Of a DNA stretch of 54,084 bases, positions 41,340 to 43,504 are shown piece after piece (position 1 is the stretch's first letter; the number at the start of each line of letters is the position of its first letter). The stretch comes from a virus, in IMG/VR virus record IMGVR_UViG_3300048686_000814, positions 1-54,084 of that record. The stretch is one strand, 5' to 3'. The notes below the pieces were generated by a model. That model was not told the origin of the DNA and searched no databases. It saw nothing but the letters and a program-made list of their open reading frames with translations. A program made the translations under genes and the position numbers.

Positions 41340-41849
41340 TTAAACCATTATTTTACTTACTGCGGTTATTACACTACTAATACGACCAATATCTCGCAAT
41401 TGTTCTACATTGTAGCCCGCCTTGCGTAGTGTATCGTAGTGTGCTTTTACACAAAATTCGCATTTACCTACTATACTAGCTGCTAAACTATATATCTCAA
41501 ATTTATCTTTAGTAGTACCGGCATGAGTACTAATAGCGTTCATACGTAGTTGAGCAGGTAAATTTTTTAATTGAATATCTTTACTCATTTCTACATATGG
41601 ATACCAAGTATTATTCATAGCCATAATACTAGCGGCTGTAATAGCTGCTTCAGCCTCTTTATTATCAGTCATCTCACTATGAATCCAAGTCCACAGTTTG
41701 TGGTGTCCAGTAGCAAAAGCTGCTGCTAATGCTACATATTCCGCTGTTTCTCCTAGTATACTGCGTTTAATAGTAGTATCTAGGTTTAGCTTAATATCCT
41801 TGGCATAATCTGGAATTTCACCTTTAAGGTTGTCTACCCACTGTGTCAC
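41340..41849 (-). CDS. ahpD: AhpD-like alkylhydroperoxidase
   Basis: 169 aa. CEFCVKAHYDTLRKAG carries the CxxC...H active site of the AhpD/carboxymuconolactone decarboxylase family, at the expected C-terminal position; AEYVALAAAFATGH is the matching N-terminal helix. AhpD reduces AhpC or peroxides via its dithiol. Start overlaps the ahpC stop by 4 nt, so the two form one translational unit. Confidence 0.88.
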   Translation of the reverse strand: MTQWVDNLKGEIPDYAKDIKLNLDTTIKRSILGETAEYVALAAAFATGHHKLWTWIHSEMTDNKEAEAAITAASIMAMNNTWYPYVEMSKDIQLKNLPAQLRMNAISTHAGTTKDKFEIYSLAASIVGKCEFCVKAHYDTLRKAGYNVEQLRDIGRISSVITAVSKIMV

Positions 41850-42424
41850 AGTGTTGTTCCGCCTACAGCACGATTACATTGACAAAGTTCACCAGTTTGT
41901 AGTGCATCTAATACACGCAGTGTTTCTTCTGGACTGCGACCTACGTTAAGGTTATTTACTGTTACATGCTGAATAACATTATCAGGATCAACAATAAATG
42001 TAGCACGTAGTGCTGCACCTGCTGGTACGTAAAATACACCTAGTTGTTCAATTAAGCTAAGATTTTTATATCCGATGCCAAATGCATCTTCTTCAGTCCA
42101 CTCATTACTTCTGCGCTGTGTATCAGCAAATTGAACGTGTTTGATTTTGCCCAAATCTTGGTGACTACGCTGCCAAGCAAGTTTGCAAAACTCATTATCT
42201 GTGCTGCCTGTTAATAGTACAGCATCACGATCTGCAAAATCTTGAAATAGTTTGTCGTATGCTACAATTTCTGTGGGGCATACAAACGTAAAATCTTTGG
42301 GGTAATATACAACGACTTTCCACTTACCAGGAAAGCTAGTTTCAGTAATATCAAAAAATTGATCGCTGCCTGGATTAATACCAGTTACTAAGAATGGTTT
42401 TAGTTTATCGCCTACTGTTTTCAT
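41846..42424 (-). CDS. ahpC: AhpC-type peroxiredoxin
   Basis: 192 aa from the ATG at 42424 (AAGGATATT upstream); longer readings run into the tRNA-Gly gene. YYPKDFTFVCPTEIVAY holds the peroxidatic Cys; Arg in GRSPEETLRVLDALQT; resolving Cys in GELCQCN. Detoxifies H2O2 and organic peroxides, recycled by the co-encoded AhpD instead of AhpF. No upstream promoter of the common type was seen; it may be co-transcribed with the tRNAs. Confidence 0.92.
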   Translation of the reverse strand: MKTVGDKLKPFLVTGINPGSDQFFDITETSFPGKWKVVVYYPKDFTFVCPTEIVAYDKLFQDFADRDAVLLTGSTDNEFCKLAWQRSHQDLGKIKHVQFADTQRRSNEWTEEDAFGIGYKNLSLIEQLGVFYVPAGAALRATFIVDPDNVIQHVTVNNLNVGRSPEETLRVLDALQTGELCQCNRAVGGTTL

Positions 42425-42441
42425 AATATCCTTGTGTTGTG

Positions 42442-42517
42442 TGGAGCGGCAAATCGGTCTCGAACCGACAACATCCTGCTTGGAAGGCAGGTGCTCTACC
42501 AATTGAGCTATTGCCGC
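42442..42517 (-). tRNA. tRNA-Gly(UCC)
   Basis: Acceptor GCGGCAA/TTGCCGC, anticodon stem CCTGC/GCAGG with loop CTTCCAA, T loop TTCGAGA, discriminator T and encoded CCA, as expected for tRNA-Gly. Confidence 0.93.
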
Positions 42518-42740: not shown

Positions 42741-42894
42741 AATCGCTCATTACAACAAGACTAACGCCAGTATGACTGGCTAGCTCTTCAACTAGAGCTG
42801 CAATTTTATGTAGGAGATCAACGTGATCATAGTGATCATCTCCATCACACTCAAAACTAACACTCATGCCCGCATGTTTAAACTCTAGTTCCAT
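42688..42894 (-). CDS. Small acidic protein, 68 aa
   Basis: 68 aa with an extremely acidic C-terminus (TETNTDEDEDKWAD) and DGDDHYDHVDLLHKIAALVEEL. The ribosome site AGAGGAA is just behind the tmRNA coding piece. The DNA-mimic-like charge could suit an inhibitor of a host DNA-binding protein, which is speculative. Confidence 0.6.
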   Translation of the reverse strand: MELEFKHAGMSVSFECDGDDHYDHVDLLHKIAALVEELASHTGVSLVVMSDYADTETNTDEDEDKWAD

Positions 42895-42911
42895 AAATTC
42901 CTCTGTTTGTG

Positions 42912-43240
42912 TTGTTGGTGGCGGTTGTTGGCTAATAAGGTCAACCGCCTAAACCCCAGCCTAGCTTATGCAGCTAAGGCAAATACCTCATCGTTGGCAT
43001 TTATCTTATTTGCTTCTTTTACGGAGATCGCCTACCGAGTTGTCCACCGCAATACTCTTTACCCCGTCGAAACCGTGACTGGCCCATCAAAAGCACAATA
43101 CTAGCATATAAGCTAAATGGATCGATCCTTCCAACCACTGTCGATCACCCGTTGGGTAGGGTATTATGCTTTTGGTGGACCAGAGGGGAGTCGAACCCCT
43201 GTCCGCAGTACGTTTCTATTAGCTTCATACAACTATATTA
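42912..43240 (-). ncRNA. ssrA: Circularly permuted (two-piece) tmRNA gene
   Basis: Order on the - strand is acceptor piece (about 43240-43173), spacer (43172-43086), coding piece (43085 to about 42912). The acceptor piece ends with T arm AGGGG-TTCGACT-CCCCT, CTGGTCC, discriminator A and CCA at 43173. The coding piece begins GGGCCAG, which pairs with CTGGTCC over 7 bp with a G3-U70 wobble (alanine identity), followed by TTTCGACGGGG of the tmRNA D-loop. A plausible PK1 (GCGG/CCGT and GAGT/ACTC) precedes the tag frame; the stop codon lies in a bulged stem (GCCT-AGCT/AGCT-AGGC), and an 8-bp stem GGCGGTTG/CAACCGCC closes the 3' side. Exact outer ends need mapping. Confidence 0.93.
42966..43013 (-). 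other. tmRNA tag reading frame
   Basis: From a GCA resume codon the frame reads A-N-K-I-N-A-N-D-E-V-F-A-L-A-A-stop. The last ten residues match the usual ANDExFALAA protease tag; five extra residues (ANKIN) come before them. A later GCC at 42998 could instead be the resume codon, giving the ten-residue ANDEVFALAA tag. Confidence 0.85.
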
Positions 43241-43504
43241 CTACATCTTTCCAATTCTATCCTTAGCACGTTGTCGTTGTTCGCGCTCTTTTATTACTCC
43301 ATATTTATTTTCTAGCTCATCAATAATATTTTTCATATGTAAGTAGTGTTTATATATATTACCTATTTTGTTTTCAATATAAAAAGTTATACCAAAAGCT
43401 AATAATAGTATACATATAAAATTAATTCCCACTAATGCCGCTAAAATAATAAATTGTTCTTGTAAAGCATCGAATTGAATTATTAGTTTATCAATTATTT
43501 GCAT
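43241..43504 (-). CDS. Membrane-anchored helical protein, 87 aa
   Basis: 87 aa. One membrane segment (about 18-42, FIILAALVGINFICILLLAF) then a charged helix. Its stop is at the likely 5' end of the tmRNA acceptor piece, so both may be on one transcript. Unknown function. Confidence 0.6.
   Translation of the reverse strand: MQIIDKLIIQFDALQEQFIILAALVGINFICILLLAFGITFYIENKIGNIYKHYLHMKNIIDELENKYGVIKEREQRQRAKDRIGKM

Follow-up and report, generated by a model that had tools for sequence, protein, structure and literature searches.

Two-piece tmRNAs are already known from phages. In the part of the PMC9004378 survey drawn on here, 402 phages encode tmRNA and 53 of the 133 unique phage tmRNA structures are two-piece, 50 of these 53 coming from marine or aquatic samples, and a second source lists 79 bacteriophage tmRNA sequences (PMC11915505). 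The two-piece tmRNAs of Melnitz, Pelagibacter phage Mosig and others are, like the locus described here, complete permuted ssrA genes in aquatic phages, and the same part of the survey describes a glutamine riboswitch with ssrA and no nested protein genes (PMC9004378). Bacterial permuted tmRNAs (RF04321, RF01849-RF01851; PMC11915505) share the gene order, acceptor stem, T arm, tag and G3-U70 pair, but most of the cellular spacers that we parsed are 22-47 nt long and free of cargo, whereas phage spacers are longer and variable. The present locus is a further member of this group of permuted phage tmRNAs. It differs from the surveyed phages, as far as that part of the survey describes them, in its T5-like polymerase clade, its match to a beta-type model and its long spacer, whose precursor helix covaries.

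The window (the whole 54,084-nt stretch of DNA that was analysed) is a linear 54-kb metagenome fragment from a freshwater phage, a T5-like contig held as a virus record. It encodes members of the tail fibre, DNA polymerase, ribonucleotide reductase and DnaB-type helicase families. The polymerase is 75-96% identical to those of 80 viral loci and 48-49% identical to matches such as Vibrio phage Thalassa, which we take to be T5-like phages. ARAGORN identifies eight tRNA genes between 41.2 and 46.9 kb. Beside this tRNA/tmRNA region, at 41340-42502 on the minus strand, an AhpC/TSA peroxiredoxin gene (PF00578) adjoins one for an AhpD-like member of the carboxymuconolactone decarboxylase family (PF02627).

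Read directly, the stretch 42912-43240 contains a permuted tmRNA gene on its minus strand (Table 1). As originally predicted, the acceptor half lies upstream of the coding half, with CCA at 43173, G1 at 43085 and 87 nt of spacer between them, and the 7-bp acceptor stem pairs across the junction (GGGCCAG/CUGGUCC, 7/7 pairs) with G3-U70 kept. ARAGORN independently calls a permuted tmRNA at 42875-43265 on the minus strand, with the tag ANDEVFALAA, which ends in a degron-like LAA and has its stop codon. Rfam covariance models, the kind of check proposed with the original prediction, give the same answer: RF04321 (tmRNA_permuted) matches over its full length (model 1-213; 129.6 bits against a gathering score of 47, E 3.9e-25), as does RF01850 (beta_tmRNA; 116.9 bits against 84, E 5.5e-35), which outscores the other two older class models, and the standard one-piece model, RF00023, has no match over its gathering score in the window. 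The predicted fold is more stable than 100/100 dinucleotide shuffles (z -3.84) and closes the acceptor stem across the spacer, followed by one mismatch and then a spacer helix; of the coding-piece structures flanking the tag, only the 3' hairpin is seen in it. By homology, the mature RNA is probably in two pieces.

Table 1. Features of the permuted tmRNA locus (window coordinates).
Feature	Position	Strand	Basis
Acceptor (3') piece	43173..43234	-	sequence; RF04321 begins 43234; ARAGORN
T arm AGGGG-UUCGACU-CCCCU, 5 bp	43200-43184	-	sequence
Acceptor 3' strand CUGGUCC	43183-43177	-	sequence
A73	43176	-	sequence
CCA, encoded	43175-43173	-	sequence
Intervening spacer, 87 nt, presumably removed in processing	43086..43172	-	sequence; spacer ORF analysis
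Precursor helix 5' arm AAAGCAUAAUAC, paired with 43101-43090 and prolonging the acceptor stem	43161..43172	-	fold; compensatory changes in relatives
Precursor helix 3' arm GUAUUGUGCUUU	43090..43101	-	fold; compensatory changes in relatives
Conserved UGAU directly before G1, opposite A73-CCA	43086..43089	-	sequence; end-motif counts
5' (coding) piece: GGGCCAG, D-loop motif GGUUUCGAC, pseudoknot region, tag, 3' hairpin	42913..43085	-	RF01850 to 42913; RF04321 to 42966
Acceptor 5' strand GGGCCAG, then GGUUUCGACGGGG	43085-43079	-	sequence
Tag frame ANDEVFALAA and stop	42966..42998	-	ARAGORN
Coding-piece 3' terminal hairpin GGCGGUUG/CAACCGCC	42920..42949	-	fold; RF01850 alignment

The call is not a chance one, because 15 of 50 viral contigs related through their DNA polymerase have an RF04321 match over the cut-off. 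A 16th, G025, scores 72.3 bits once its 577-nt spacer is allowed for, and standard tmRNA (RF00023) is found over the cut-off in none of the 50. The acceptor pairs covary (CUGGUCC/GGGCCAG, CAGCUCC/GGGGCUG, CAGGUCC/GGGCCUG, CACCUCC/GGGGGUG and CUACUCC/GGGGUAG) and G3-U70 is constant across the parsed T5-like relatives, whose tags, from ARAGORN or read from the sequence, all end in LAA (ANDEVFALAA, ANDSQFALAA, ANDNTFALAA, ANDESFALAA and ANDSEYRLAA). Such conservation bears on whether the tmRNA might be degenerate, or a decoy, and support no tagging, for example as an inhibitor of the host tmRNA. There is a precedent in the CDS-less form of phage DS6A, which inhibits the endogenous tmRNA (PMC11915505), and we found no SmpB gene in 20 phage contigs, the window's included, all of them fragments. 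An acceptor stem with G3-U70, CCA, T arm and tag frame that are all intact, together with relatives that keep compensatory changes and intact LAA-type tags, nevertheless makes a decoy very unlikely. We consider it highly probable, from the sequence comparisons, that the locus is a functional phage-resident permuted tmRNA gene whose spacer serves as an exchangeable cassette. Since no SmpB gene was found in the 20 contig fragments, function would depend on the host protein; the suggestion that the phage manages stalled ribosomes itself is thus only partly plausible.

The T5-like set is mosaic, with UUCGAYU, UGCRAAU and GGCAGUU T loops and two versions of the pseudoknot region. Position 55 of the T loop and position 18 of the D loop change together, with 95 G-A, 40 T-G, 9 G-G and 2 T-A combinations in viral loci and 38 G-A, 2 T-G and 1 other in cellular ones. 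To judge from these counts, the alternation of U-G and G-A is a tertiary-contact covariation in viral and cellular permuted tmRNAs alike. Some relatives with variant loops could be degenerate copies, though the two positions change together. The altered T loops are not peculiar to phages, as many cellular genomes also have U55G loops and the A18 partner is present in both. ARAGORN missed L091, L095, L096 and L097, which have altered T loops or long spacers and are found by Rfam, a warning for annotation that permuted tmRNAs of this kind escape the program. Two further relatives depart from the usual form: the tag of L095 has 14 residues (ANDEHFYQEFKLAA) rather than 10, and the acceptor half of L094 encodes ACCU, not ACCA, so that CCA repair may be needed.

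The original prediction had the gene captured from a host with a permuted tmRNA. Recent capture of ssrA from a betaproteobacterium-like host would explain why the beta model scores above the other two older class models, and such hosts do have permuted forms, but RF01850 also fits the tmRNAs of Pseudomonas, Xanthomonas and cyanobacterial phages, so the beta label names no host and shows no descent from Betaproteobacteria. When 399 Pseudomonadota genomes were searched at the DNA level, no close cellular relative came up, the matches being short (best 79% over 47 nt). The tag pattern ANDEV(F/Y)AL has no match in ~85,000 species genomes, and T5-like spacers, at 67-577 nt, are longer than the ~22-47 nt of most cellular loci that we parsed. 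Permuted tmRNAs are also present in the cultured P. aeruginosa phages SM1, UF_RH6 and PA_L9, the Xanthomonas phages XacN1, X1 and Rb1, Stenotrophomonas phage QDWS359 and Synechococcus phage BUCT-ZZ01, with RF04321 confirmed for representatives, whereas Pseudomonas, Xanthomonas and Stenotrophomonas themselves have a one-piece tmRNA. On this evidence recent host capture is improbable; the data agree better with a gene that has long been present in phages and passes from one phage to another, as does the mosaicism of the T5-like set. The permuted tmRNAs of the Pseudomonas, Xanthomonas and Stenotrophomonas phages (L513-L519) are not annotated as tmRNA in their records, and in XacN1 (L515 321-479) two annotated suppressor tRNAs lie upstream of the permuted tmRNA.

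In the phage loci, fold and compensatory changes show that the spacer ends form a helix prolonging the acceptor stem. With partners shuffled for comparison, pairing of the ends reaches 9.62/10 against 6.42 in the T5-like relatives (no shuffle above 8.62), 9.46 against 8.11 in viral spacers with a Shine-Dalgarno sequence (SD) and an ORF, and 8.46 against 6.20 (sd 0.12) in the other viral spacers outside this SD-ORF set. The helix was rejected as a phage-unique feature, since L377 and L387 are among the cellular loci with AAAACCGGC...GCCGGCTTTTGAT spacers; a one-register helix count gives little pairing in the other cellular set, and some cellular spacers form a short hairpin ending UUUUGAU. The content between the arms is free to change. 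T5-like spacers measure 67-143 nt, plus the 577 nt of G025 (the median is 73 nt in the U55G viral sample), and L092 is 91% identical to the window over 75 nt ending at CCA, beyond which its 143-nt spacer is unrelated. The spacer of G025 (IMGVR_UViG_3300007177_000075) contains a gene for a 183-aa HNH endonuclease (L231:1301-1852 (-); phrog_2255, E 8.2e-28). The gene ends in GGG UAG, and these final codons run into the tmRNA 5' acceptor strand, which forms the stop. Searches for homologues of this endonuclease and of an L092 ORF elsewhere returned only the queries themselves, so that the L092 ORF on its own is weak evidence. The window's own 87-nt spacer has no open reading frame of note. The constraint is structural rather than on sequence, so the spacer serves as an exchangeable cassette in these relatives, a structured loop in the window and an HNH endonuclease in G025. 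A structured element, GCCACTTAATA.ATATATG.GGA...TTCC.CGGGT, is the tmRNA spacer in L091 and L095 and lies between tRNA and tmRNA in L090, L093 and L094.

These features suggest how the gene may work. A single transcript would fold so that the 3' acceptor half pairs with the 5' coding half across the spacer, whose ends would lengthen the acceptor stem by ~12 bp and present the processing sites. By analogy with cellular permuted tmRNAs, the spacer would then be excised by tRNA-type enzymes, RNase P at G1 and a 3' processing activity at CCA. The predicted product is a two-piece tmRNA that would use host AlaRS, EF-Tu and SmpB for aminoacylation and trans-translation, rescuing stalled ribosomes and appending ANDEVFALAA. 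In the window phage the cassette holds a structured loop; many other viruses have protein genes at this place.

Such protein genes are evident well beyond the T5-like set. A search pattern combining the T arm, acceptor and CCA with NAAGGA and a nearby AUG matched at least 120 viral contigs, and none of 399 Pseudomonadota genomes matched the SD/AUG spacer pattern. The tmRNA 5' half follows in at least 116 of the viral contigs, and 4 matches end at a contig edge. The nested-ORF loci (L403-L511 and some of L141-L226) comprise ~60 peptide families by simple k-mer grouping among the matches listed, and these matches collapse to 72 spacer clusters, 71 of them testable. Short frames can fill a spacer by accident, as ORFs of 20-26 codons do in ~7-26% of shuffles, and the spacer ORFs might on that account be chance open frames in helix-bounded loops. 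Among the matches listed, however, an ORF runs across the whole spacer in 62 of 71 clusters against 8.7 expected from shuffles that keep SD and AUG, and in 31 clusters against 3.7 the stop lies exactly 1 nt before G1, both counts being conditional on a pattern that fixes U70 and requires SD and AUG. Viral spacers without SD have no excess of spanning ORFs (16 against 16.8 expected). In three ORF families the differences fall mostly at third codon positions (153 vs 89 and 40; 25 vs 7 and 11; 38 vs 16 and 6), and some products are recognisable: a thioredoxin (Pfam Thioredoxin, E 4.1e-21) on a contig that also has ribonucleotide reductase, a Cys-rich protein (PF03692, CxxCxxCC, E 1.3e-6) and an ORF with a weak HNH match (phrog_10820). 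Chance frames are, given these results, very unlikely. Many of the other ORFs encode small hydrophobic or membrane proteins.

The coding sequence and the RNA structure overlap closely in these spacers. The SD lies in the 5' arm of the helix, where its two G positions are mostly in G-U pairs, and the last codons lie in the 3' arm, so that the same C termini recur, KVSL and VFF among them; the UGA of the UGAU before G1 is often the nested stop codon in ORF-bearing relatives. Because the window spacer has no ORF, this result concerns the family rather than the window copy. No nested ORF was present among the cultured phage isolates checked, and in the OQ183418 match only ~100 nt is left between the flanking genes. 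We found no earlier description of protein genes nested in viral permuted-tmRNA spacers in the open-licence literature.

It is quite possible, and we offer it as a tentative reading of the sequences, that the phage permuted tmRNA is a platform for nested genes, with the window phage carrying an empty (structured) cassette. SD and last codons would form the processing helix, so that production of rescue RNA and of protein would compete on one transcript; translation of the nested ORFs, and its coupling to tmRNA processing, are our hypothesis. The arrangement recalls the tmRNA group I intron with a homing endonuclease (PMC11915505), likewise an endonuclease gene in a segment absent from the mature RNA, although that intron is in the T-loop region and the viral gene (G025) in the permutation spacer. 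It may also share a logic with arfA, whose RNase III-cleaved nonstop mRNA is controlled by tmRNA (PMC3985003): speculatively, both would be helix-cut messages that depend on tmRNA status, but unlike arfA the nested ORFs sit within the tmRNA precursor itself. The viral tmRNA permutation spacer is a recurrent landing place for protein genes, in which RNA structure and coding sequence are mutually fitted. A permuted gene could benefit a phage for this concrete reason, and whether ribosome rescue is coupled to protein expression can now be tested directly.
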